Part shown: positions 3,959 to 41,474 of the stretch, in pieces
How the letters are laid out: each line of letters begins with the position of its first letter
Position numbering within the stretch: the stretch's first letter is position 1
Origin: Anaerolineaceae bacterium
GTDB lineage: Bacteria; Chloroflexota; Anaerolineae; Aggregatilineales; Phototrophicaceae
Assembly: GCA_007693385.1 (NCBI GenBank)
Contig: REDR01000059.1
Location: 1-42,342, forward strand
DNA length: 42,342 nucleotides
Direction of reading: 5' to 3'
Made by a program: the position numbers and the translations under genes
The notes under the pieces: generated by a model
Told to the model about the DNA's origin: nothing
Database searches by the model: none
What the model saw: only the letters and a program-made list of their open reading frames with translations

Positions 3959-4333
3959 ATGAGTACAAAGACCGTCGCGCTGATCGCGCATGATGGCAAA
4001 AAAGACGACATGATCGCGTTCGTGCAGGCCAACACGAACGTATTGCGGCGCTACAATCTGGTCGCCACCAGTACCACCGGATCACGCCTGCATGAAGTAT
4101 GCGATCTACAGATCGAGCGCCTGCTATCCGGCCCGTTGGGGGGAGATGCACAGATCGCCGCGCAGGTGGCGGAAGGTCTGGTCGCGGCGGTTTTCTTCTT
4201 CATAGACCCGCTAGGCAAGCACCCGCACGACCCCGATATTCAAACGTTGATGCGGATTTGCAACGCGCACAACGTCCCGCTCGCCACCAATCCGGCGACG
4301 GCGGCGTTTGTCATCTCGGAAAAGGCGCTTTAG
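3959..4333 (+). CDS. mgsA: Methylglyoxal synthase
   Basis: A cytosolic enzyme that converts dihydroxyacetone phosphate to methylglyoxal and phosphate, bypassing lower glycolysis when phosphate is limiting. The 124-residue product carries the family pattern: IALIAHDGKK-like start (A-L-I-A-H-D-G-K-K), TSTTGSRL phosphate-binding segment, GPLGGD with catalytic D63, and FFIDPLGKHPHDPDI. The ATG at 3959 follows a GAAAGG ribosome site, and an upstream in-frame start lacks one. Its stop codon (4331-4333) overlaps the stop of the convergent gene (4330-4332) by two bases. Confidence 0.95.
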   Translation: MSTKTVALIAHDGKKDDMIAFVQANTNVLRRYNLVATSTTGSRLHEVCDLQIERLLSGPLGGDAQIAAQVAEGLVAAVFFFIDPLGKHPHDPDIQTLMRICNAHNVPLATNPATAAFVISEKAL

Positions 4334-5304
4334 TCGGCTCTTTCGGCGCGACGGGTGGCATAGCCCAGCAGGGCATCGGCTAGCAGTGCCTGCAACAGCA
4401 CATAGCCCATCAACGCCGCGCCGATCAACACGCCGTAAGGAATGTCGCGCCACACCTCCGCGCCGTAAAATCCCAGATACAGCAAACTGAACCCCCAGTC
4501 GCCCAGCGCGGCGAAAGCGAAGACCAGCACCCACGCCAGCCAGCCGCCGCTATCCAGTGGCGCGGTGCTGAGCGTGCTGAACATCAGCAAAAGCGCCAGA
4601 CTGACCATCACGCGCACGGTGATAATGGTGATCTGCGCCAGCGCGACGTAGGCCCGCCGCTTGATGTATGTCGCCAGCAACAGGCCGAGAGCCGCATCTA
4701 ATCCGAGCGTCGTCACCGGCAATAGCAAGACCGCCGCCATCGTCAGCGCCAGCAAGATCACCGCCGCCACCGGCGCGACATCCGGCGTGATCCCGCCGGT
4801 TAAGCTCCGCAGATATTCACCCTGAAACGCGGTCAGATCGTACAGGAGCGCGGCGATCAAGACCAGCCGCCCGCCCATGATGGCGGCTAACGATCCGCGC
4901 AGGCGATAGAACAGCAGATGCGCCCAGCGCGTGCGGAGCGTCAACCCCGCGCCGTGCGAGGTGGCGCGTACCGTATCCCACAACCCGCGCCGTTGATAAT
5001 GGCCGATCATGCCAATGGTAGACATCAGCACCACGCCGACCATCACGATCTGCACCATGTACACCGGATACAGCAGGCCGCGAGTCAGCATCTCGCTGAT
5101 TGGCAGGTCTAGCGGATCGTGGGTGAAGAAGTCGCTGGCCGCGCCGTAGCCGATGAAGCTCAGGATGACGAGCGATAGCAGAGCGCCGGCGATGCGCGTA
5201 TAGCGCCCGCCGGATTTGCCGCGCTTCGCTTCGCGGTGCGAGCGCAGAACCGGATGATCGCTTGTCGCCCATGCCGGCATCGTGCCTAATAGTCGCTGTA
5301 TCAT
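4330..5304 (-). CDS. Polytopic membrane protein of unknown function, coupled to addA
   Basis: I do not recognise a family. The 324-residue product has about eight hydrophobic segments after a basic, soluble N-terminus of roughly 38 residues. The longest lie around A-L-L-S-L-V-I-L-S-F-I-G, Y-M-V-Q-I-V-M-V-G-V-V-L-M, V-I-L-L-A-L-T-M-A-A-V-L-L, and near the C-terminus. A soluble loop with R-W-A-H-L-L-F-Y-R-L-R-G resembles the coupling loops seen in ABC-2-like membrane proteins, but this is weak. The start ATG overlaps the addA stop in an ATGA, so translation is probably coupled. It is the last gene of the five-gene addAB run. Confidence 0.75.
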   Translation of the reverse strand: MIQRLLGTMPAWATSDHPVLRSHREAKRGKSGGRYTRIAGALLSLVILSFIGYGAASDFFTHDPLDLPISEMLTRGLLYPVYMVQIVMVGVVLMSTIGMIGHYQRRGLWDTVRATSHGAGLTLRTRWAHLLFYRLRGSLAAIMGGRLVLIAALLYDLTAFQGEYLRSLTGGITPDVAPVAAVILLALTMAAVLLLPVTTLGLDAALGLLLATYIKRRAYVALAQITIITVRVMVSLALLLMFSTLSTAPLDSGGWLAWVLVFAFAALGDWGFSLLYLGFYGAEVWRDIPYGVLIGAALMGYVLLQALLADALLGYATRRAERAD

Positions 5305-8300
5305 CGCGCTGATGTCTCCTGTGTGTGATCGTCGTCGCCTGCGAGTGCGGCGCGGATGTTCTCGTCAAGCGGCGTATCGGCCAGCGCTTCGCGCCATGCT
5401 TCGCGGCTGATCGTCACCGGTTGGTCTTTTCCGCCGCGTATGTAATGCACCAGCGCCGACGGCTCTTCGCCCAGTTGCGCGGCCAGCGCGGAAGCATAGA
5501 TGCCCAGTTGCAGATGATAGCGGCGGGCGTGTCGCCGGTAATCGCCGCCGCGCACGACGCCGGTCTTGTAGTCAGCGACCACCCAATCACCCGCCGCCGT
5601 CTGATAAACCACGTCGATGACGCCGTGAATGATGTAATCATCGCGCTTATAGATGAACGGCATTTCGCGGTAGACCTGCCGTGCGTTTTCTAGCGCGTGG
5701 TATGTTTTACTGCGCTCGAAGCGTTCCAGCAGATCGTGACACGCTGAGACGATTCCGGCGGCCTGCGCCGCGTCGGTGATGCCATGTCGCCACGCATACG
5801 CGGTCAGGATGCGCTCAAGTTGTCCCGCGCCGGTGTGCTTCGGCAGATGCCAGTGGCGCAATGCCTCGTGGACGATCTGCCCGATGTAGCGCCCCTGCTG
5901 GCGACCATCGCGTTGTTGACTGACGGTGCGGATGTTATTCGGCGCATCGTACAGCACGCGCCGCCGGATGCGGTCACGGTAGAAGCGGCGTTCGTGCGGT
6001 GGCGTGTGCCGGATACTGCCCAGATCGGCGATGTGGGTGGCGGCAAGATGATGCGCCGAAGCGTGCGCCGATGCGCCGTCTGCTAGAATCGGCGCGGTGA
6101 GTGGTGGAGCGGTTGGTTCTGCGCCCGATACATCCGGCCATGCGAAAGACCCCGCCGCGCCGATTTCCGCGTGTGCGGTGCGGCCTACCGGCATGTGAAC
6201 GCGCAACGGCGGCACATCCGGCCACACGTCCAGCAATTGCGGCGCGGCGTCCGGCGCGATGCGGTCAGCCAGCGCGAACGCTTCGATCAGTCTCGCCAAC
6301 CACGTCGAGCCACCGGCGCTGAATCCACCGTTTTTTGATAGCTTGGCCTGTCCACTGACGATCAGCAAATCTTGAGCGCGGGTGGCGGCCACGTATAGCA
6401 GGCGCAGATTCTCGGCGGTTTCGCGCTCTTTTTCCAACGCTTGAATGCGACTGTAGATGTAGCGCGTCTTGTCCGCTTTTTCGTCGTCGGGCGGCGGCGG
6501 GACTTTGCACCCCAGCCCGTACCGCGCATCATAGACCACATCCGACGCCGTGCCGCGTCCGGTGTGACTGGCGTCGGCCAGCACGACAACCGGAAATTCT
6601 AACCCCTTGCTGGCGTGTACCGTCATGATGTTGACCGTGCCTTCGCTCAGCGTGGGGGCTTCGCCTTCGCGGGCTTCCTTGTCGCTCATCTGCGCCAGAT
6701 AGCGCAGGAAATCGGACAGCGTGACGCGCCCGCTTTTCTCCGCTTTTTCGATCAACTTCTCCACATTGGCGCGGCGCTGGACGCCATCCGGCAGGGCGCT
6801 GAGCGTCGCCATGTAGCCGGTACGCGCCAGCAATTCGCGCAATAATTCGGCGATGGTCACGCGGCCAGCCATGCCGCGCAGACCGCGCAATGTCGCCACC
6901 GCAAAGGCCAATCGTGGCCGGTCTGCGGCGGGCAGGCGTTCGGCAGAGGGTGACTGCATGGCCTCCCACAGTCGCGTTGGGCTGTCGCCGGTGCGGAGCG
7001 CGAAAAGCGCTTCATCGCTGAGCGTGAAAAGCGGCGAGCGCAACGCGGCAGACAACGCCAGATCATCCGCCGGATTGTAAATGGCGGCCAGCGCGTTCTG
7101 CAAATCCCACACTTCCTGACGATCATAATAGCCTCTGCCGGAAAGCGTGATGAACGGCAATCCCCGCGCTTTGAATACCGCTTCGTACAGCGAAACTCGC
7201 GTCATGCCACGAAACAGGATGGCGAAATCGCCGTATTGCACTGGCCGCGTCGCGTCCGCTTCGCGGTCATAGATCAGCCGCCGTTCCGCTACCAGCGCAT
7301 GAATCCGCGACGCGATTTCGTCCGCTTCCCAGCGCCGCCGCGTCTCCGCGTTTTCTTCGTCGGTTTCTTCGCCGATCAACAACATCTCGACGCACGGCGC
7401 ATCAGACGGCGGTTGATCGCGCTGGGCGCTCATCGGCACGCCGAGCGTCACCTGATACGCGCTGGCTTCGCTTTCGTCGTCGCGCCGGAGCAACGCGCCG
7501 AATAGATGATTAAACGTTTGCACCAGTGGCCGGTGCGTGCGAAAGGAGCGCGAGAGCGAAGCCTCGCATCCGGCGTCACTGTCGCTGATCGCCGCGCAGA
7601 CCGCGCCAAACACGCTGACATCCGCGCCGCGAAACGCATAAATGCTCTGTTTGGGATCGCCCACCACAAACAGCGTCTCCGGCGCGTCCAGATCGGCCAG
7701 CGCCCGCACAATCGCCCATTGATCGGCGTTGGTATCCTGAAATTCATCGACCATCAAATGCTTGATCTCGCGCCCGCGATAGCGGCTGACGGCAGACGCG
7801 CCCGCCGTCGTGAGTAACTCGCGTGTCAGTCGTTCCAGATCATCGAAGTCGAGCGCGGCGGCCTGTTGTTTGGCGGCGCGGTACGCATCGCGGACGGTGG
7901 CGATCACCTGTGACCAATAGATGACCAGCCGTGCCGCTTCTGCTTCCTGTGCCGTGTCGAAGGTGTTCGCCCGCGCCCAATCCCGCGCATCTTCGATGAT
8001 GTGCTTGGCTTCGTTGAACGTCTCATCAGATGCCCATTGTTTTTTCGAGCCGCCGCGCAGATCAAATCGCGTCATCGCGTCGATCTGGTAATCGGGCGGT
8101 TCGCCCGCGCTGATCGCGTCAGCCATCGCCCGCAGATCGCGTAGCGTCTGCCCGCGCTTGCAACCGGTCGGGATGGCTGTCTCTTGCGCTAGCGCGTCGA
8201 TGCGTTGTAGCGTCCGCGTCATCGTCGCCCGCGCCGACTGCTCGAAATGTTCGCGCCACGCGGCGACGAGCGCCTCCGCATCGGCTTCCGGCAGATCGAC

Positions 8301-8849
8301 AGCGTGCAGGCGTGTTTCGGCCAGCACATCGCGGATCGCCTTTTCGGTGTATGTCTCCAACAGCGCGACCATCGCGCCGCCGTCGTCGCCGTTTTCAATC
8401 GCCCGCAGGATGACATCATCGATCACGTCATCCAGCAACAGCGCGGCGTCGATTTCATCCAGTATGGCGAAGCCCGGGTCGATTCCGGCCTCCGCCGCGT
8501 TGGTGCGGAGCAGATCACCGCATAGGCCGTGAATGGTGTCGATGCGGGCGCTGTCCATCCCCGCCAGTAAGCCCGCCCAGCGCCGCGCCTCCGCCGAGTC
8601 CGCCACCTCTGCGAAATATCGCGCTTCCAGACCAGCCCGCACGCGGTCACGCATCTCTGCCGCCGCCTTCTTGGTGAATGTGATGGCGACGATGGCGTTA
8701 AGCGGCCAATCGGCGTTTTTCTCCAGCAGATACAGAAAGCGGCTGACCAGAACGTGCGTCTTGCCGGAGCCTGCACCGGCCACCACGACCAGATTCTTCG
8801 CGTCCGGTGTGTAGACCGCATACGCTTGTTCATCGGTGTAACGCATCAT
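5301..8849 (-). CDS. addA: AddA-type helicase-nuclease (UvrD/Rep superfamily 1A with PD-(D/E)XK nuclease)
   Basis: The motor and nuclease subunit of an AddAB double-strand-break repair enzyme, about 1182 residues. It has a Walker A AGAGSGKT with K30, TFTKKAAAEM (motif Ia), a D-E-F-Q-D-T-N motif II, GDPKQSIYAFRGAD (motif III), TVHASKGLEFPVVV and LLYVAATRA (motifs V and VI). The C-terminal nuclease shows G-V-I-D1079 and A-D1093-Y-K1095-T-G. The start is placed at 8849 because a strong AGGAGG site (8855-8860) precedes two adjacent ATGs at 8849 and 8846. The ATG at 8849 overlaps the addB stop. Both active sites look intact, so it should both unwind and cut. Confidence 0.93.
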   Translation of the reverse strand: MMRYTDEQAYAVYTPDAKNLVVVAGAGSGKTHVLVSRFLYLLEKNADWPLNAIVAITFTKKAAAEMRDRVRAGLEARYFAEVADSAEARRWAGLLAGMDSARIDTIHGLCGDLLRTNAAEAGIDPGFAILDEIDAALLLDDVIDDVILRAIENGDDGGAMVALLETYTEKAIRDVLAETRLHAVDLPEADAEALVAAWREHFEQSARATMTRTLQRIDALAQETAIPTGCKRGQTLRDLRAMADAISAGEPPDYQIDAMTRFDLRGGSKKQWASDETFNEAKHIIEDARDWARANTFDTAQEAEAARLVIYWSQVIATVRDAYRAAKQQAAALDFDDLERLTRELLTTAGASAVSRYRGREIKHLMVDEFQDTNADQWAIVRALADLDAPETLFVVGDPKQSIYAFRGADVSVFGAVCAAISDSDAGCEASLSRSFRTHRPLVQTFNHLFGALLRRDDESEASAYQVTLGVPMSAQRDQPPSDAPCVEMLLIGEETDEENAETRRRWEADEIASRIHALVAERRLIYDREADATRPVQYGDFAILFRGMTRVSLYEAVFKARGLPFITLSGRGYYDRQEVWDLQNALAAIYNPADDLALSAALRSPLFTLSDEALFALRTGDSPTRLWEAMQSPSAERLPAADRPRLAFAVATLRGLRGMAGRVTIAELLRELLARTGYMATLSALPDGVQRRANVEKLIEKAEKSGRVTLSDFLRYLAQMSDKEAREGEAPTLSEGTVNIMTVHASKGLEFPVVVLADASHTGRGTASDVVYDARYGLGCKVPPPPDDEKADKTRYIYSRIQALEKERETAENLRLLYVAATRAQDLLIVSGQAKLSKNGGFSAGGSTWLARLIEAFALADRIAPDAAPQLLDVWPDVPPLRVHMPVGRTAHAEIGAAGSFAWPDVSGAEPTAPPLTAPILADGASAHASAHHLAATHIADLGSIRHTPPHERRFYRDRIRRRVLYDAPNNIRTVSQQRDGRQQGRYIGQIVHEALRHWHLPKHTGAGQLERILTAYAWRHGITDAAQAAGIVSACHDLLERFERSKTYHALENARQVYREMPFIYKRDDYIIHGVIDVVYQTAAGDWVVADYKTGVVRGGDYRRHARRYHLQLGIYASALAAQLGEEPSALVHYIRGGKDQPVTISREAWREALADTPLDENIRAALAGDDDHTQETSAR

Positions 8850-11800
8850 TCGCCCCTCCTGCTGATGGCGTGGCGGCACAGTTGATGAAATTCGCAATAG
8901 CGCGTACATTTGCCGTCTTGCGGTCTGGACGGCGTGACGGTGAATTCGCCGCGCCGCGCCGTCGCCACAAACGCGGTCAATTGATCGGCGGTGGCGTCGA
9001 TCTCTTCGCGGTGTTTCGACAGGATAACCGCGCCGGATGCCTTGCGCCCGCCGATCAGACAGAACGCGCCGCCCAGCTTCGCCACGCTCGGGAAGCGATC
9101 ATCGAGCGCCTGCAAATAGACGAAAATCTGCATGTTGCGGCCTTCCGTCATGTCCTTGATGTTGATGGCGGTTGATCCGGCTTTGTAGTCGATGACGACC
9201 AGACCTTCGTCACAGCGATCTATGCGGTCAATCACGCCGCGTATGCGGATCGGCTCGCCGTCCGGCGCGTGCATCCGGTAAGCGAACGGCCATTCTAGCA
9301 AGAACGGGCGGCGATTGGACATCGTGCCGAACGTTTTCTCGGTCAGCAAATCGCCGCCGAAGTCAGCGCGGACGAAGCGCTCTAGCTTGCGTAGCGCCCC
9401 CTCCTGCGTGTATCGCCATAGCGCATCTTGCCGGAAGCCGAATCGCTCCGGCGCGGTGGGGAAGGTGGCTTCAGCGGCTTCGCGCAGATGGTCGAGCGCG
9501 GCGTCGGTGTTGGGCGGCGTGATGGTCAGCCCATCCTCGCGGATACCGGTGTATGCCGCCTCCAGAATCGCGTGATACAGCGAACCGCGTTGCAGAACGT
9601 CCAGCCCTTCCTCCGGTTCTTCCAGCGCTTCGAGATTCAGCAGGCGTCCGGCGAAGAAGCGATAAGCGCATTGGCCGAAGCTGTTGAGCTGGCTGGCGCT
9701 CCAATGATGGTCGGCGTCGGTGTGCGCGGCCAGTTCGGGCAATAGCGGCGCGTGCTGGATGACGCCATCATACGCGGGCGGGATGTCGCCTTTATAACGC
9801 GAAGACTCGATCTGCTGGCCGGTGCGGATGTTGTCATACAGCGCGGCATGTTGGGCGCTCAACCATGCCAGCGCTGACCGCGCCTGATGATCGTCCGCGC
9901 CCGCGCTGAGATCGCTGACGGCGGCGACGGCGGTTTCTTCCGGCGTGATGGCTGAATTCAGGCTGACCGCTTCCGCCAGCTTGACGCGCCGCGCCGCGAT
10001 ATGCGCCGCAACTTCCGCGAATGGACGGCACGCCGCCGCCCACAGACTGCTCGCCAGCCACGGCTTGCCATCCTGCACGGTGGGGCGGGTGAGCGTCAGC
10101 GTGTGGCGGGCGGTGCTGATGAGTTCGTAGAACAGGCCGTCATCGGCGCGGCGTTCGGCCTGTGTCGCCAGCAGACGCCGCCCATCGTGGCGGAGCGCCT
10201 GCCGTTCGCTATCCAGATAGAACGGATCAACCGGTGATGGCGCGGGGAAAACCCCCTCACTTAATCCGGTGATGAAGACGTGCGCGTGTGGCAGGCCGCG
10301 CCCATCCGCCGCCGTCGTCACCAGTACCCGCCCGAAGCGATCCGGGCGCGGCTTGATGTCGGTTGATTCCAATCGGCGGCCTAGCTCCGCGTAGAAGTCG
10401 CGCCACGTCACCGGCGGATTATCCGCGCCGAGCGACGACATCAAATCTTCCGTGACCAGAAAAGCGGCGAAACACGCCTTGAGCGCCTCCAGCGCGGCGA
10501 GGTCGCGGTTGATGGCGGCCTCCGGCGCGTCTTCAGCGCGGATGCACCGCATCATCTGAAGTGGTGGACGCGCTACCGTCTCCGCTGTGTCGTCGGTTTC
10601 TTCTGCTGTGTCGTCGGGCGGCATCTCGTCCGCGCCGATCAGCGCCTCTATCCACCCGATATACTCGGCGATGGTGGCGCGTTCCGGCGGCGTGATGGCC
10701 TGTATGATGGTGGCGAAGTGACCGCGCAAGGCTTCGCGCTCCGCTTCGGATTCTGCGATTGGCTGATCGTCCGCCGCTATTTGATCGTCGTCGTCGGCCA
10801 TTCTGCCCGCTTTGATCGCGTCGTCCCATTGCGCCATGCCGCGAATCACCTGATGTTGCAGGCTGACTTTTTCCAGATAGGCGACGGCTGAGGCGTCGAT
10901 AGAGTCAAATGTCCAGTAGGGCGACTGCAACACGTCAATCACATCGCGCCGCCGCAGACCGCTAGCGCTCAGTTCCAGCACTTTCATCAGCGCGATGATG
11001 GCCGGATTGCGCGTGACCGGTTCGCCGTAATGGTGCGCGATGGGCAGATGATAGCGCCGTGCCGCCGCGCTGAAATAATCGCTGTAGTTCGTCCAATCGC
11101 GCAGGACGATCATCACATCATCGGGCGCGACGCCATCCAGTAGCAGGCGCTTGACGCGCCGCGCTATCGCGCCGACTTCGCCCGCCGCGTCCGGCGCTTC
11201 GATGAAGTCCAGCCCGCCACTGATGGCGCGTTCCGGCGCATCTTGCCGGAAGATATTGCGCGTCAGATGTTGCAGGTCGGGGTGGCGGCCATCTTCCGGC
11301 GCGGCGGGTAAATCGGCTTCGCTGTAGGCATCGCCTAGCGCACCGGCCAGCCGTTCCCGCGCCTGCGCGAAGCGCCGCCCGATGGTCTGCTCGCGTCCGG
11401 CGACGTGCGTCATGGTGATGCGTACCCGTCGCACGCGCTCCGCTAGTCGCGCCAATAAGTCGGCCTGCACCTGCGTGAACTGGTCGAAGCCGTCCACCAG
11501 CAACAGATCGACGCTGGCGGCCAGACGCGGCGCGGCGTCCAGCGCATCCAACGCCAGCCAGCCCTCACCCTCACGATCCGCGAGATTGTGGCGTTGTAGC
11601 CGCGCTTGATACGCGCCGTAGATGCGGGCGAGATCGGCGTCGCGGCGGTCTTGTGCTGACTGCGCGAACGCCTCCGGCTCGATGCGGTTCTGCTTTAGTT
11701 CGTAGATGAATTCCGCGACATTGGCGACAAATCCGGCGGTCTGCGCGATGGGGGCGAATAATTTCAGCGCGTCGCGCTCGTCGGCGATCACATCGCGCAA

Positions 11801-12088
11801 TAATTCGCGCCGCGTCGTCTCGTCGATGGTGCGCGGCGGATTGCCCGCCATATCCAGCAGGCGGCTATACAGCGTGTAAAAGTTGAAGAACTCCACGTTG
11901 AAGCACGCGCCACCGGCGACGGCAGAGGAGTCGATCAGGCGTTGGCGGAACGCGGTTTCCTGTCGTCCGGTTGCCAGCAATACCCACACGCGGGTGAAGG
12001 GATGCGCGGCCAGTTCTGCGGCTAATTCATTGATGAGATGCTCGGTCTTGCCCATCCCGACGGGCGTCAGTAGGGTTTGCACATCCAT
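8846..12088 (-). CDS. addB: AddB-type subunit of the AddAB helicase-nuclease, with iron-sulphur nuclease
   Basis: Partner of AddA in resecting DNA ends for RecA loading. The 1080-residue protein has a Walker A-like T-P-V-G-M-G-K14-T at the extreme N-terminus, as in AddB proteins. Its C-terminal PD-(D/E)XK nuclease contains IRIRGVIDRI and VVIDYKAG. Four cysteines, C807 before the nuclease and C1061, C1065 and C1071 after it, match the 4Fe-4S staple known in AddB. The ATG at 12088 is preferred over a TTG two codons earlier. It starts 9 nt after the NERD gene and overlaps addA by 4 nt. Sequence similarity to RexB/AddB is remote, so the partner subunit type is inferred from motifs and context. 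Confidence 0.88.
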   Translation of the reverse strand: MDVQTLLTPVGMGKTEHLINELAAELAAHPFTRVWVLLATGRQETAFRQRLIDSSAVAGGACFNVEFFNFYTLYSRLLDMAGNPPRTIDETTRRELLRDVIADERDALKLFAPIAQTAGFVANVAEFIYELKQNRIEPEAFAQSAQDRRDADLARIYGAYQARLQRHNLADREGEGWLALDALDAAPRLAASVDLLLVDGFDQFTQVQADLLARLAERVRRVRITMTHVAGREQTIGRRFAQARERLAGALGDAYSEADLPAAPEDGRHPDLQHLTRNIFRQDAPERAISGGLDFIEAPDAAGEVGAIARRVKRLLLDGVAPDDVMIVLRDWTNYSDYFSAAARRYHLPIAHHYGEPVTRNPAIIALMKVLELSASGLRRRDVIDVLQSPYWTFDSIDASAVAYLEKVSLQHQVIRGMAQWDDAIKAGRMADDDDQIAADDQPIAESEAEREALRGHFATIIQAITPPERATIAEYIGWIEALIGADEMPPDDTAEETDDTAETVARPPLQMMRCIRAEDAPEAAINRDLAALEALKACFAAFLVTEDLMSSLGADNPPVTWRDFYAELGRRLESTDIKPRPDRFGRVLVTTAADGRGLPHAHVFITGLSEGVFPAPSPVDPFYLDSERQALRHDGRRLLATQAERRADDGLFYELISTARHTLTLTRPTVQDGKPWLASSLWAAACRPFAEVAAHIAARRVKLAEAVSLNSAITPEETAVAAVSDLSAGADDHQARSALAWLSAQHAALYDNIRTGQQIESSRYKGDIPPAYDGVIQHAPLLPELAAHTDADHHWSASQLNSFGQCAYRFFAGRLLNLEALEEPEEGLDVLQRGSLYHAILEAAYTGIREDGLTITPPNTDAALDHLREAAEATFPTAPERFGFRQDALWRYTQEGALRKLERFVRADFGGDLLTEKTFGTMSNRRPFLLEWPFAYRMHAPDGEPIRIRGVIDRIDRCDEGLVVIDYKAGSTAINIKDMTEGRNMQIFVYLQALDDRFPSVAKLGGAFCLIGGRKASGAVILSKHREEIDATADQLTAFVATARRGEFTVTPSRPQDGKCTRYCEFHQLCRHAISRRGE

Positions 12089-12097
12089 CAGCAAGCC

Positions 12098-12829
12098 TTA
12101 GTCATCGCTCAGTATTTCGACAATTGCCTCAACGGTGCGCTGTTCGATGCGTTCCCGTGCCAGATAATTCTGCTTCAAGCGATGATGTAGCGATGTCATG
12201 TGGGTGGCGGGCACCACCGGATTCTTGAGTGTGAGGTGCGCGTCGGGGTCGGATTCGACGAAGACGACGATGCCGTAAACCGGAATATCGGCTTGCCCAT
12301 GCGCCACCAGATAGCGCCGCAACGCTTGCACATCGTCAATCGCCTCTTTCGTCGGGTTGAATGATAGCGGCTTCCAATGTCCCTGCGCGTTGGCCTTCAT
12401 CCAATGGCCGCCTTCGTTGAGGAATTTGCCGGTCTGCCCGACGATGCGAAAGACCAGCACGCCCGGCTTGCCGATCAAGAGCGCGTCGATGTATCCCAGT
12501 CGGCGCTTGCTCAGGTTGCGGATGTAGATATATGAATCGTCGAACAGGTCGCGCATGTGGTTGCCGACGGTGATCGCCAGCGTGTTATCCGGCTTGATGG
12601 TGGCCGCCCGAATCGCGAAGCCGACGCCAGCCAGCCCGATCAAGACGCCGCCGAACAATAGCGTCACCTGCGCCAGACTGACCAGCGTGCCCGGATCATC
12701 GTCGGCGGTGACGAATAGCGCCAACCCCATGATGCCGCAGAAAATACCCAGCGAGATCAGCAAAAACGCGATCTGAAAAAATGTGATCGTGCGTCGCGTG
12801 ACGATGTGTGAGGGGATGATACTCCGCAT
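12098..12829 (-). CDS. Membrane-anchored NERD-domain protein with altered active-site residues
   Basis: A 243-residue protein with two N-terminal membrane helices (about residues 17-41 and 50-73) and a cytosolic NERD (nuclease-related) domain from about residue 88. The D115 of Y-I-D-A-L-L-I is kept, as is the N158-P motif. The E-x-K pair that normally follows in this family (I-E-V-K) reads F-R128-I-V130 here, so nuclease activity is doubtful. It is the second gene of the addAB operon, 3 nt after the response regulator and 9 nt before addB. Its location suggests a structural or recruiting role at the membrane for the repair enzyme, but that is inference. Confidence 0.75.
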   Translation of the reverse strand: MRSIIPSHIVTRRTITFFQIAFLLISLGIFCGIMGLALFVTADDDPGTLVSLAQVTLLFGGVLIGLAGVGFAIRAATIKPDNTLAITVGNHMRDLFDDSYIYIRNLSKRRLGYIDALLIGKPGVLVFRIVGQTGKFLNEGGHWMKANAQGHWKPLSFNPTKEAIDDVQALRRYLVAHGQADIPVYGIVVFVESDPDAHLTLKNPVVPATHMTSLHHRLKQNYLARERIEQRTVEAIVEILSDD

Positions 12830-37137: not shown

Positions 37138-37259
37138 TGGCGGTTGTTTTTTACGTGGAAAGTCGTGCAGTCCTCACGGCACAATCCGAGCGTATCCTGT
37201 CGGCGCGTCCGGCGTCAGTCGCATACGATGACCAATCATTAGGAATGATCGGCGTTGTG

Positions 37260-37268
37260 TGCTATACT
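37260..37268 (+). promoter_or_regulatory. Extended -10 promoter of the V4R-domain gene
   Basis: TGC-TATACT is an extended -10 element about 110 bp before the ATG at 37381. A weak -35 region precedes it. It implies a leader of about 105 nt and lies inside an upstream in-frame extension of the gene, which argues for the shorter protein. Confidence 0.5.
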
Positions 37269-37380
37269 CCTGACTCGAAATTATGGATACGAACCGCTTG
37301 CGCTTCATAGACTGCGTGTATCTCTTACTGAAGACGAAACCACGGTTGGTCTCAACGCACCGATTGGAGGATCAAACACA

Positions 37381-38010
37381 ATGGCGGAAAAAAGCGGATT
37401 TTATTACCCGAATAAATTCGCCCGCATCACGGTAAAGGCGATGGAAGAGATTATGGGTCGGAATGGCTTAAACGCGATTCTGAACCTTGCCGGGCTTACT
37501 GATTTGGTTGATAACTACCCGCCCGACAATCTCGAAAAACAGTTTGACTTCGCAGACTTTACCGCGTTGAACGTGGCGCTGGAAGAAATGTACGGCCCGC
37601 GTGGTGGGCGTGGGTTAGCCTTGCGTGCTGGCCGGGCAACCTTCGCCGATGCGTTGCGCGGCTTTGGTGCGTTGGCTGGCGTCGGCGACCTCGCCTTTAA
37701 GGTATTGCCCCTGAATGCCAAGCTCAAAATCGGCGTTCCGGCAATGGCTAATATCTTTAACCAGTTCTCCGACCAGATTTCAAACGTCTATGAAGAAGGC
37801 ACTGACCGCATCATCTACACCTTAGAGCGTTGCCCCATCTGCTGGGGACGCAAGACCGATAAGCCGGTCTGCTATGTGGCGCAGGGACTCTTGCAAGAAG
37901 GTCTGCGCTGGGTGTCCGGTGGTAGCGAATTCAAAGTTGATATGTCCGACTGCATTGCCAAAGGCGACGAGATGGGGCGGCTCATCATCTACAAAGAGCC
38001 GATTGGCTAG
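37381..38010 (+). CDS. V4R (4-vinyl reductase-like) domain protein
   Basis: A 209-residue protein resembling the V4R small-molecule-binding domain: an N-terminal region with Y-Y-P-N-K-F-A-R and R-N-G-L-N-A-I-L-N-L-A-G-L, a central helical part, and a C-terminal half with conserved cysteines (C-P-I-C, V-C-Y-V, S-D-C). In V4R proteins such cysteines are thought to bind metal. The ATG at 37381 follows a GGAGG site 10 nt upstream. It is expressed alone, with its own promoter. The name reflects the domain; enzyme activity as a vinyl reductase is not implied. Ligand and role are unknown. Confidence 0.72.
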   Translation: MAEKSGFYYPNKFARITVKAMEEIMGRNGLNAILNLAGLTDLVDNYPPDNLEKQFDFADFTALNVALEEMYGPRGGRGLALRAGRATFADALRGFGALAGVGDLAFKVLPLNAKLKIGVPAMANIFNQFSDQISNVYEEGTDRIIYTLERCPICWGRKTDKPVCYVAQGLLQEGLRWVSGGSEFKVDMSDCIAKGDEMGRLIIYKEPIG

Positions 38011-38175: not shown

Positions 38176-39354
38176 ATGATTGATCGTGTACGTGTGTCCC
38201 TTTTAATCGCATTTCTGGCTGTGTTTTTGGCCGCTTGTAATCTCGGTGGGATCGAGCGCGAAGAAGACATCGACACCACACCGCCGCCCACAGAAGAACA
38301 ACTCGCGGTGCCGGAAGTCGTCATCAACTCGCCACTGGACGGCGCGGAGTTTGTCATCAATGCGCCGCTTTTCGTCACCGCTACCATCACCGATAGCGTC
38401 GGTGTAACCACCGTGCAACTACTCGCCAACGGCCAGCCGGTACGCACCGTCGGCGTCGAAGAAACCGACAACCGGCAATTCCAGCCCGTGCTGGACTTCA
38501 CGCCGCGCACCACCGGCACGGTCACGCTCGGCGTGATCGCCTATCGCGGCAACGTCGCCAGCCAACCGGCCACCGTACAGGTCACCATCCGCGATAGCGC
38601 CTCTGCCGTCACCGCCACGCCGATTCCCGGCGGCAATCAACCGGTCATCAACCCCGACGATCCCAACTGTCGCGCACTGGTCAATACCGGCTTGAACTTC
38701 CGGCGCGGGCCAGCCACCTCATTTGACATCATCCGCACGCTCGGCGCGGGCGAAGTGCTTCAGGCCGTCGGACGCTTGCCGGATAATACGTGGTGGCAGT
38801 TGATTGACCGTAGCGGCACACGCGGCTGGGTGAGCGCGAATTTCATCACGCTGTATGACGGGCGCGTGTCGTTGTGTCGCAATGTCAACATCATTCAGCC
38901 ACCGGCCACCGCCACGCCACCGGCTACCGCTACGCCACCACCATCACCGACAGCCACCGCCACGCGCACCGCCACGCCGACGCGCACCGCGACGCCGACT
39001 GCCGTCCCGTTGCCGGATTTGCGCGTGTCTAACGTGTTCTGCCCGACGGAACTGGTTATCCCTGCGGGTGAGCCTGACGTGACCGCCGAATTCAGCTTTA
39101 ACATCACCAATTCCGGCGGGGTGGTCAACCAGCAATTCTCGGCGCGGGTGCGCGTGGTCAACGGCGATACATTCGACGCCGGAACATATAGCGGGCTGGA
39201 TGGCGGCCAGACGTTGAGCGCGACAGTAGACATCACCATCGCGCAGACCGGCGAAGTAGCCGTTATCTTCGCCGTCGATCCGGATAACGAGATCACCGAG
39301 AGCGACGAGACCAATAACGAGCGCACCTGCACGGTGACGGTTACCAACGAATGA
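38176..39354 (+). CDS. Lipoprotein with Ig-like, SH3 and CARDB-like domains
   Basis: A 392-residue surface lipoprotein with a lipobox (F-L-A-A-C21). After a short Thr/Pro spacer, an Ig-like region (about 45-140) is followed by a bacterial SH3 domain (about 168-230; L-N-F-R-R-G-P-A and G-W-V-S-A-N-F). A T-A-T-P-T linker (about 240-280) then leads to a CARDB-like beta domain (about 281-392; V-N-Q-Q-F-S-A-R-V-R-V and D-N-E-I-T-E-S-D-E-T-N-N). The parts suggest cell-wall or polymer binding outside the cell. No enzyme domain is visible. It stands alone between its promoter and a REP-like hairpin. Confidence 0.85.
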   Translation: MIDRVRVSLLIAFLAVFLAACNLGGIEREEDIDTTPPPTEEQLAVPEVVINSPLDGAEFVINAPLFVTATITDSVGVTTVQLLANGQPVRTVGVEETDNRQFQPVLDFTPRTTGTVTLGVIAYRGNVASQPATVQVTIRDSASAVTATPIPGGNQPVINPDDPNCRALVNTGLNFRRGPATSFDIIRTLGAGEVLQAVGRLPDNTWWQLIDRSGTRGWVSANFITLYDGRVSLCRNVNIIQPPATATPPATATPPPSPTATATRTATPTRTATPTAVPLPDLRVSNVFCPTELVIPAGEPDVTAEFSFNITNSGGVVNQQFSARVRVVNGDTFDAGTYSGLDGGQTLSATVDITIAQTGEVAVIFAVDPDNEITESDETNNERTCTVTVTNE

Positions 39355-39455: not shown

Positions 39456-41474
39456 ATGGCGAAAGCATCTATACGCTTTTTGATCTTGCACAAACAATTG
39501 AGCTTTTCGCTCAATATCAAGCACACGCTGGAGGCGCTGGGCGGCTTTGATGTCGCCCCGTTCACCACGCCACAGACCGCGCTTGATTACCTGCAAGCGC
39601 ACCCCCAGCACGTCGCGCTGATTGATTTCGCATTGCCCGGCGTGGCCGGAAGCGAAATCGTGGAGGCGTTCCGCGCCTGCCAGCCCGATTTGCTGATGAT
39701 CGCCTCGCCGGATTTGCCGCGTGTGGTCTCCGTCGCCCGCCAGATGAAGCTGAATGGCGTCGCCGACGCGCCGACCACCGCCCGCGCCCTGATTCCGGTG
39801 TTGCGCCGCGTGCTATCGCGCATGGACGATCTGCCGGACGCGACCCGCGCCACGCTACAGATACCCGCGCCGCCGATTGACGATGACGAACGCGCCATTT
39901 CTGCGTCTACTGCCACGACGGGATCGCGTCCGCTAGACCCCGAATCGCAGGCCAGAACGATTGAATTCGTGTTGAAGGCCGATGTCGAGAACCTGCGCGA
40001 TAGCGGCGAAATCCCGGAAGGCATCAGCGATGAAGTCCTGCAATCGTTCAAGCGTCTGGCCGCCGAAGAACCGCCGATGCCGACATTGGCCGAAACCGGC
40101 ACCGTACACGATCTGCGCGTGATCGTCGCCGATGACGGCGGCACCACCAACCAGCAACCCGCCCCGCCGCGTGATGTGCCGACTGCCGACGACTCCAGCC
40201 CGCGCTTCGTGGAGAGCGCCCTGCGCGTTGTCGAAGATGACACCATCCCGCTTGAGCAACTGCGCGACGCGCTACAGGCCGAATTCCCCAACACACGGGA
40301 GGGCGAGCCGCTTCCGTCGTGGCTGGAAAACGTCGAGCGCTACGTCAACGAGCCGGATTTTCTGGACGGCGTGACGCCGCGTGACCCGTTGGCCGCCTAC
40401 GTTGACGGCGACGACACCCCGCCGCCCGACAGCTTGCCCGGACAGCAACCGCCACCGCCTGATAATCTGCCCGGACAGAAGCCGCCGCCCGCGTTGCCCG
40501 CCTATGAGTTCCCGTCGCCCGATCAACCGCAAGCCCAGCCGCAGTCGCCACAGGCCGAACCCGAACCCGCCCGCGATTCGCTGGACGATCCACAGATCGC
40601 GCAGATGGCCTTGAACCTGACGCAAGCCGCCACCGATTTGACGGCGGAAATGGCCGTCCTCGCCCGTGAAGGGCAGATCATCGCCCATGCCGGAATCCTG
40701 CCCATCGAAGAGGTTGACGGAATCAGCGATCTACTGGCCGATGACTGGGGCGCGGATTCCGGCGAAGCGCGTATCCGCTTCATCACATTGCCCGATAGTG
40801 GCCGCGATTACATGGTGCATTCGCGCCAGACCGACGACGGCCTCACGTTGTCGCTGGTGTTCGCCGGTAATATGCCCCTGCGCGTGATGCGCTTGCAGAG
40901 CGACAAACTACTGCACGCGCTGACCAGCGTGCCGGAGTTGCCCGCGCCCGGCCAGAGCTTGCTGGACGCCCTGCAAGCCCGCGAAATTCAGTCGCTCGAA
41001 TCCACCGCCGCGCAGGAATTTGAGGCCGCCGTCAACAGTACCGCCGAAGTCGCCCGCGAACACGGCGAACAGGCCGTAAGCGATCCTGAAACCGACGCGC
41101 CGGAAGACGCCCCCGCGCTGACCGCCTACACGGTGGTCTGGATGCTGGCCGACCCGCAAGCTGTACTCGCGCCGGAGGCCAGCCGCGCCATCCGCGAGCA
41201 ACTGGAACGCGACCTGACCGCGCTCGGCTGGGTGGTGGATAGCTTGCAGGTGCATGAGGACTATATCTATCTGCTGGCCGATGTGCCGGTGGGCGATACC
41301 GCCTCCGATGCCATCGTCGCCGACCTGAAAGAGCGCGCCGCGTGGATCGCGCATGAGGCCGCGCCCGATCTTGACCCGTCGGCGCTGTGGGCGGATGGCT
41401 ACTGCGTTCTGCTTCCCGGACGCGACCTCGACCCCGATGAAATTCAGCGTTATATCAACTTCGCCCGCCTGTGA
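39456..41474 (+). CDS. Multidomain protein: degenerate receiver + Roadblock/LC7-like + inactivated IS200/IS605 (Y1) transposase-like domain
   Basis: A 672-residue protein with no annotated family that I know. Residues 1-120 form a receiver-like domain: D57 is kept (A-L-I-D-F-A-L-P-G), but the acidic pair is H12-K13 and the KP lysine is missing. Residues 125-385 are mostly disordered, with P-P-D-S-L-P-G-Q repeats. Residues 385-495 resemble a Roadblock/LC7 domain. Residues 556-672 follow the IS200-type TnpA pattern: Y-T-V-V-W, G-W-V-V-D-S-L-Q-V, then D602-Y603-I-Y605-L-L where transposases have D-H-V-H-L, and E-I-Q-R-Y666-I at the end. The family glutamine after the tyrosine is A670. polA starts 36 nt downstream, so the two are probably co-transcribed. 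Transposition activity is unlikely; a binding or signalling role is inferred. Confidence 0.7.
   Translation: MAKASIRFLILHKQLSFSLNIKHTLEALGGFDVAPFTTPQTALDYLQAHPQHVALIDFALPGVAGSEIVEAFRACQPDLLMIASPDLPRVVSVARQMKLNGVADAPTTARALIPVLRRVLSRMDDLPDATRATLQIPAPPIDDDERAISASTATTGSRPLDPESQARTIEFVLKADVENLRDSGEIPEGISDEVLQSFKRLAAEEPPMPTLAETGTVHDLRVIVADDGGTTNQQPAPPRDVPTADDSSPRFVESALRVVEDDTIPLEQLRDALQAEFPNTREGEPLPSWLENVERYVNEPDFLDGVTPRDPLAAYVDGDDTPPPDSLPGQQPPPPDNLPGQKPPPALPAYEFPSPDQPQAQPQSPQAEPEPARDSLDDPQIAQMALNLTQAATDLTAEMAVLAREGQIIAHAGILPIEEVDGISDLLADDWGADSGEARIRFITLPDSGRDYMVHSRQTDDGLTLSLVFAGNMPLRVMRLQSDKLLHALTSVPELPAPGQSLLDALQAREIQSLESTAAQEFEAAVNSTAEVAREHGEQAVSDPETDAPEDAPALTAYTVVWMLADPQAVLAPEASRAIREQLERDLTALGWVVDSLQVHEDYIYLLADVPVGDTASDAIVADLKERAAWIAHEAAPDLDPSALWADGYCVLLPGRDLDPDEIQRYINFARL

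Follow-up and report, generated by a model that had tools for sequence, protein, structure and literature searches.

Introduction

What does the fold of a mobile-element enzyme do at the end of a signalling protein whose gene stands directly before that of DNA polymerase I (polA)? This question is raised by an open reading frame (ORF) of 672 amino acids (aa) in a DNA stretch of 42,342 nucleotides (nt), hereafter the window, from Anaerolineaceae bacterium (Chloroflexota, class Anaerolineae; GenBank assembly GCA_007693385.1, contig REDR01000059.1, positions 1 to 42,342). In this ORF, a receiver domain is followed by an acidic, proline-rich linker, a Roadblock/LC7 domain, a further linker, and an IS200/IS605 Y1-transposase domain (Table 1). 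A preliminary description, made from the sequence alone, had interpreted the last part as a domesticated transposase domain without its HUH histidines and had found the order of domains unfamiliar. The ORF is confirmed, and its coordinates and the residues Asp57, Tyr603-Ile-Tyr605, Tyr666, and Ala670 lie exactly where that description placed them; the identities and order of the three domains are well supported, being backed by profile, Protein Data Bank (PDB), and fold searches, and the overall interpretation is partly supported. The order of domains indeed appears new: searches of the open-licence PubMed Central (PMC) literature, judged by titles and the beginnings of abstracts, gave no description of a receiver-Roadblock-Y1 transposase protein. 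In this article, the structure, catalytic residues, descent, and genomic neighbourhood of the fusion protein are described. By descent and fold, its last domain belongs to the Y1 transposases, yet it fails their catalytic and mobility features and is not filed as a transposase here; with modest confidence, we regard it as a non-catalytic scaffold module that was captured beside polA.

Fold of the C-Terminal Domain

The Pfam model Y1_Tnp (PF01797) matches residues 557–668 of the window protein with 28.1 bits against a cut-off of 23, and it matches the last domain of all 30 relatives searched (E up to 0.1). Six more distant or longer relatives were scanned over their whole length, of which three lie above this cut-off, two below it, and one has no Y1 part; scores below the cut-off were obtained for the fused relatives L180 (18.4) and L048 (15.5). 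A profile of the 30 relatives, searched against the PDB, retrieves eight distinct Y1 transposase sequences with E from 1.6e-18 (2f4f) to 6.2e-10 (IS608), and the single further hit up to E 1 stands at 0.33. Structure models were made of single domains, namely the transposase and the Roadblock parts. The AlphaFold2 model of the transposase part, built from 30 sequences, has a mean predicted local distance difference test score (pLDDT) of 92.8 and the order beta-alpha-beta-beta-alpha-beta-alpha; Foldseek gives 30 matches at E up to 0.001, every one of them a Y1 transposase, and VIA-align superimposes it on 2fyx with Z 14.3 (root-mean-square deviation [rmsd] 2.8, 119 residues aligned) and on 2f4f with Z 13.8. 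The preliminary description had named a fold other than that of Y1 transposases, or a firm place in an unrelated ferredoxin-like family, as evidence that would speak against the assignment; both checks favour the Y1 fold, and the ferredoxin-like alternative was rejected on the uniform Foldseek result and on the best non-Y1 match, which reaches a Z of only 7.3. Furthermore, the NCBIfam model for “IS200/IS605 family transposase” (cut-off 55) gives 25.4 for the window copy, and 55.9 and 56.4 for L175 and L174, one of which belongs to family f32 and the other to f62. Because these two members pass the cut-off, public annotation probably names some such fusion genes transposases, a likely source of wrong names.

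Loss of the Catalytic Residues

The catalytic positions were compared between 84 fused domains and 30 stand-alone TnpAs. Domains in an ORF with a Roadblock match were counted as fused, those whose trimmed sequences did not differ were merged (the two copies of genome G262 thereby collapse into one row), and hits under 85 aa were excluded; every stand-alone TnpA comes from Chloroflexota, and the set was chosen for its top scores with PF01797 or the fused profile rather than at random. In the PDB profile alignment, the HUH stretch of TnpA aligns with the D-Y-V-Y of the fused family. Both HUH histidines are kept in none of the 84 fused domains as against 28 of the 30 stand-alone TnpAs, with the first kept in three fused domains and the second in one, so that at least one of the histidines missing from the Y-I-Y of the window copy is lost in every fused domain. 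In L011, the transposase domain reads F-I-H, with His at the second HUH position, and its genus-mates read F/Y-I/V-Y. At the nucleophile position, the fused domains have Phe in 58 cases, Tyr in 24, and Leu in two, and the stand-alone TnpAs have Tyr in 27 and a gap in three; the catalytic Tyr said to be kept is thus present in the window copy (Tyr666) and is not a feature of the family. The Gln of the Y---Q pattern is replaced by Ala670 in the window copy and found in 11 of the 84 domains. Judged by these residues, the fused domain looks catalytically dead. Partial loss also occurs outside the fusion, one HUH histidine being replaced in the stand-alone TnpAs L140 (Y-V-H), L142, and L278 (both H-V-R).

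The residues that took the place of the histidines are not random: the first is Tyr or Phe in 78 of the 84 domains and the second Tyr or Gln in 74. This bias would be expected if the old HUH site had acquired a new catalysis, metal-free or differently liganded, through aromatic or Gln residues. However, the residues vary by group (Y/F-x-Y, the Y-x-Q that prevails in f32, and W-V-N), a pattern more in keeping with packing than with a single chemistry, and we consider a new catalysis quite improbable. A Y-x-Y fixed across homologues, for which the preliminary description had suggested looking, was not found, since its strict form occurs in just 22 of the 84 domains and Y/F-x-Y in 50.

Descent, Selection, and Mobility

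The fused domains form one group. In a careful tree of 37 fused rows, obtained by thinning the 84 at 0.72 similarity, and 45 stand-alone TnpAs, they lie on one side of one branch with support of 100/98, and in a FastTree tree of all 84 fused and 30 stand-alone domains the fused branch has support of 0.941; both trees are unrooted. The domain is under purifying selection, with a median ratio of nonsynonymous to synonymous substitution rates (dN/dS) of 0.084 in 205 close pairs, and the medians of the Roadblock and receiver parts are 0.101 (86 pairs) and 0.177 (33 pairs), although the pairs are not independent of one another. No second PF01797 match was found in the genome of the window, the fusion gene being the only one. 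The several copies and variable positions that mark a mobile TnpA gene are therefore not seen: there is one genomic copy, and its relatives usually stand before polA. The domestication that had been proposed from the window sequence agrees with the single branch, the selection, and the single copy.

The homology to TnpA and Tyr666 of the window copy would also be explained if the domain were a transposase that is still active or was so until recently, or the remains of an insertion sequence that had landed in a signalling gene. This explanation was rejected as hardly tenable because at least one HUH histidine is lost in 84 of 84 domains, and it is contradicted likewise by the single branch, the purifying selection, the usual place before polA, and the lack of another PF01797 match in the genome. 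Genome G262, which also carries an intact copy, has a further, broken fusion gene (G262:C1:1456912-1458867, L052) with four TGA codons and one TAG codon in one matched part.

Distribution in Anaerolineae

A first scan of genome contigs with the single protein as the query found no relative. In the order to which the window belongs, 137 of 154 genomes match some part of the protein (E up to 1e-6), and the 17 without a match include all nine of family f6. In the rest of the class, 41 ORFs have a Roadblock match, of which 33 also have a transposase domain and eight consist of receiver and Roadblock only (one of these, L026, lies close to a contig end). After removal of repeats, the 33 ORFs come down to 26 genomes, and a receiver was found in 24 of these 26, once weakly. 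Altogether, Roadblock and transposase parts were read together in genes of nine families: f1 to f5, which belong to the order of the window, and f32, f39, f56, and f62; no receiver was found in the f56 fusion. The length of the whole ORF differs widely between relatives. The named relatives are all from metagenome assemblies, which might suggest an artefact of assembly or gene calling. Such an origin was rejected and is practically negligible, since the Roadblock and transposase domains lie in one open frame in 84 distinct sequences from independent assemblies in nine families, the window ORF has no internal stop, and the fusion is also present in single-contig genomes such as G213, G027, G733, and G379.

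Linkage to polA

The fusion is conserved next to polA, a point that the preliminary description had raised for checking: in 67 of the 84 distinct fusion genes, polA follows in the same orientation at a distance of at most 6 kb, and in 60 at no more than 400 nt. In the family of the window, the usual order is a putative MiaB-like gene (so named for its motif), a V4R-like gene, a gene for an SH3/CARDB protein, the fusion gene, and polA. An SH3/CARDB-type gene (cluster c2) lies upstream of relatives in 32 of 48 loci, and the V4R-like gene (cluster c6) is an upstream neighbour in 14 of 48. A relative of the V4R-like protein has a weak MetOD1 match, below the cut-off of that model. Downstream of polA, genes for a carbamoyltransferase, a tetratricopeptide repeat (TPR) protein, a CdaA-type diadenylate cyclase, and a YbbR protein are often found (noted at L037, L104, and L100).

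A census of 90 polA loci across the class shows Roadblock and transposase matches upstream in five, a Roadblock match alone in four (three from f40 and one from f10, with an ORF truncated at the contig start), receiver and Roadblock in two (f15, and f14 with a weak Roadblock match), and a receiver match alone in four (three from f33 and one from f15, more than 500 nt away). The fusion gene of G019, 1390 nt before polA, was missed in the census for its short upstream stretch. Short Roadblock ORFs without the transposase part stand upstream of polA in L185, L187, L188, and L191 (families f40 and f10), those of the first three ending about 60–90 nt before it, and receiver-Roadblock genes stand directly before polA in L196, L179, and L248 (f15, f59, and f14, the last with a weak Roadblock match). 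The presence of such genes before polA means that the link is not confined to transposase-bearing genes. In our reading, the transposase was captured by a gene that already sat before polA, and a single gain of the transposase part seems to us more likely than its loss in the other families.

Receiver and Roadblock Domains

The first domain scores 24 bits with Response_reg, below the cut-off of 30.2; this model matches the first domain of 23 of 25 relatives (E up to 0.1), and a PDB profile search with the receiver retrieves response regulators (best E 5.7e-10). In the window protein, His12-Lys13 replace the acidic pair that binds Mg and Asp104 replaces the Lys. Family receivers mostly have Thr or His, then Arg or Pro, at the acidic pair, and Asp or Arg for the Lys. 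Both the window copy and the family alignment thus match the earlier account of a receiver that keeps Asp57 without the acidic pair or the Lys, and by its residues the domain is classed as a pseudo-receiver.

With the Pfam model Robl_LC7, the middle domain gave no match (E up to 1) in any of 30 members, and this model was dropped as a test. By contrast with Pfam, the PDB profile search places MglB on top (E 0.0016). The model of this domain (pLDDT 75.9) has the order alpha-beta-beta-alpha-beta-beta-beta-alpha, as in Roadblock; its first 27 Foldseek hits are MglB entries (best E 2e-6), and VIA-align gives Z 12.2 for Mon1 and 11.9 for MglB (rmsd 3.5, 113 residues aligned). Longin-type domains lie within 1 Z of these (e.g., 4afi, 11.3), and Z alone cannot separate Roadblock from longin; we favour a Roadblock domain on the sequence search and the Foldseek result with the predicted model. 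Roadblock domains bind Ras-like GTPases or act as dimeric scaffolds. One protein of 190 aa encoded in the genome of the window is a candidate MglA-type GTPase (G000:C39:60658-61107), with scores of 65.2 bits for ATP_bind_1, 33.9 for Ras, and 33.7 for Arf, and three Robl_LC7 proteins that consist of this one domain occur elsewhere in the genome.

Possible Roles: Scaffold or Nucleic-Acid Binding

We propose that a receiver-Roadblock protein beside polA captured the reading frame of an IS200/IS605 TnpA once, early in Anaerolineae, that the captured domain then lost its HUH metal site and mostly its nucleophile Tyr as well, and that purifying selection retained it as a non-catalytic module. The fusion protein would be a cytoplasmic scaffold, in which the Roadblock domain may dimerise and bind a partner such as a small Ras-like GTPase, the pseudo-receiver may dock a partner or be modified at Asp57, and the TnpA fold, with mostly aromatic residues in its old active site, may offer a second surface for dimerisation or partner binding. 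Known TnpAs are dimers. A scaffold of two such modules is proposed because Roadblock domains bind GTPases or dimerise, TnpAs are dimeric, and a candidate GTPase is present in the genome.

Several observations weigh against this proposal. The polA link is far from universal in Anaerolineae: it is absent in 14 of the 84 fusion genes, with data lacking for a further three, and 75 of the 90 polA loci have no receiver, Roadblock, or transposase match in the upstream stretch examined, where absence is weak evidence for the eight loci with under 700 nt and the 30 with about 1500 nt or less upstream. The 14 unlinked genes include one copy of f32 and those read in f2, f4, f5, and f39; for another five of the 14, less than 3 kb of downstream sequence is available. 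The candidate GTPase came from an Arf search that is unspecific, with matches in 14 of 14 control genomes, and in the neighbourhoods read, where only some clusters were scanned, no gene for a GTPase was recognised. Finally, the domain of f32 is mildly basic, mostly has Tyr at the nucleophile position, and keeps Lys or Arg at three of six basic positions, so nucleic-acid binding may survive.

This last point bears on the possibility that the dead domain binds single-stranded DNA or RNA, e.g., hairpins, without cutting, and brings the Roadblock and receiver domains to nucleic acid, perhaps to sites of PolA-dependent repair. A nearly unchanged fold and the linkage to polA favour such binding. For the basic residues, six positions with Lys or Arg in at least half of the stand-alone TnpAs were scored. 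Three of them are kept in part: one, basic in 30 of 30 stand-alone TnpAs, in 41% of the order’s 58 copies and 96% of those of f32, and two further in 47% and 90% of the order’s copies and in 100% of those of f32 each. However, the position that is basic in 29 of 29 scored stand-alone TnpAs is almost gone in the fused copies (2% of the order’s copies and none of the 23 of f32), and the last two of the six are largely lost. The domain is also acidic in the order of the window, with a median isoelectric point (pI) of 4.79 (58 rows) as against 8.64 in f32 (23) and 9.47 in stand-alone TnpAs (30), and a median net charge of −7 as against +6 in stand-alone TnpAs. Since 20 of the 23 window genes measured, including the polA part, have a pI below 7, the acidity of the domain alone proves little and does not decide binding. 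The sequence evidence on hairpin binding is thus mixed, and we regard this role as possible yet rather doubtful. The non-catalytic scaffold remains our preferred explanation. That the apparently dead HUH transposase, in a signalling protein made together with DNA polymerase I, relays receiver or GTPase signals to repair or replication is a more specific and, at present, unlikely proposal.

Comparison With Known Systems

The last 122 residues resemble IS200/IS605 TnpAs (2f4f, 2ec2, ISDra2 2xm3, IS608 2a6m, and DR_0177 2fyx) in fold and sequence; in 2fyx, which matches best by structure, the HUH stretch is D-Y-V-H, with Tyr in the place of the first His. Unlike these proteins, the fused domain has lost at least one and mostly both HUH histidines, is usually without the nucleophile Tyr, and is joined to signalling domains in a single fixed gene. 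In TnpA-REP proteins (RAYTs), which work with REP hairpins, HUH and Tyr are retained, and to our knowledge the known domesticated Y1 transposases keep this HUH/Tyr chemistry. The fused family is similar to RAYTs in being a domesticated Y1 fold rather than an insertion sequence, but does not keep HUH and Tyr, and the RAYT structure 4er8 matches its model less well (Z 7.4). A passage of PMC8266576 presents TnpA-REP as the first domesticated transposase of prokaryotes. TnpA-Y1 proteins have been classified by their HuH/Y core, with unexpectedly long proteins discarded as gene fusions or annotation errors, according to the procedure given in PMC6006769; as worded there, this length filter would probably have removed the present family.

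The middle domain shares its fold with MglB, the Roadblock GTPase-activating protein of the small GTPase MglA, and differs in being fused and in being missed by Robl_LC7. Fusions of Response_reg and Robl_LC7 are mentioned in PMC4316618, and these too have a receiver followed by an MglB-like domain; the present family differs by its transposase domain and polA link, the words “transposase” and “DNA polymerase” being absent from the main text of that article.

Features of the Window

The positions of the features are given in Table 1. The fusion gene is separated by 36 nt from polA and by 101 nt from the SH3/CARDB gene upstream. A scan for sigma-70 promoters remained at the level of shuffled sequences (two observed, 2.1 in shuffles), a terminator scan was near that level (seven observed, 5.0 in shuffles), and an Rfam scan gave a tRNA as its sole match. 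Elsewhere in the window, an AddA/AddB-like helicase-nuclease pair lies at 4330-12829 on the minus strand. Its two genes overlap by 64 nt; a NERD-domain gene comes before the pair, and an ORF of 324 aa without a Pfam match comes after it.

Table 1. Coordinates of the fusion gene, its parts, and the neighbouring genes in the window.
Feature	Position	Strand	Basis or remark
V4R-like protein gene, upstream	37255..38010	+	Weak V4R match, E 0.0074, below cut-off
SH3/CARDB protein gene, upstream	38176..39354	+	Pfam; lipoprotein-like N-terminus read from sequence
Fusion gene (receiver, Roadblock, apparently dead Y1 transposase), 672 aa	39456..41474	+	ATG start, no internal stop
Pseudo-receiver domain (by residues), residues 1-125	39456..39830	+	Response_reg, PDB profile
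Asp57, phospho-acceptor position	39624..39626	+	Asp in 74/78 receiver rows
Linker, residues 126-375	39831..40580	+	23% Pro+Gln, 20% Asp+Glu
Roadblock/LC7 (MglB-like) domain, residues 376-500	40581..40955	+	PDB profile, model, Foldseek
IS200/IS605 Y1 transposase domain, apparently dead, residues 551-672	41106..41471	+	Pfam, PDB profile, predicted fold
Tyr603-Ile604-Tyr605 at HUH position	41262..41270	+	Profile aligned to HUH stretch of solved TnpAs
Tyr666 at nucleophile position	41451..41453	+	Alignment of 84 fused domains
polA, N-terminal part, 277 aa, cut by contig end	41511..42341	+	5_3_exonuc_N, 5_3_exonuc (Pfam)

Perspective

In nine families, a Y1 transposase fold has been kept and its catalytic residues lost, within a protein that carries a Roadblock and usually a receiver domain. 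This makes the family a natural example, open to testing, of an enzyme from a mobile element that became a structural or binding module, and in many Anaerolineae formerly mobile DNA seems to have turned into a permanent part of the cell. Furthermore, the neighbourhoods point to an unexplained link of Roadblock and receiver genes with polA in part of this class. Should the relay of signals proposed above prove true, signals would reach DNA repair or replication in these bacteria through a former mobile-element fold.

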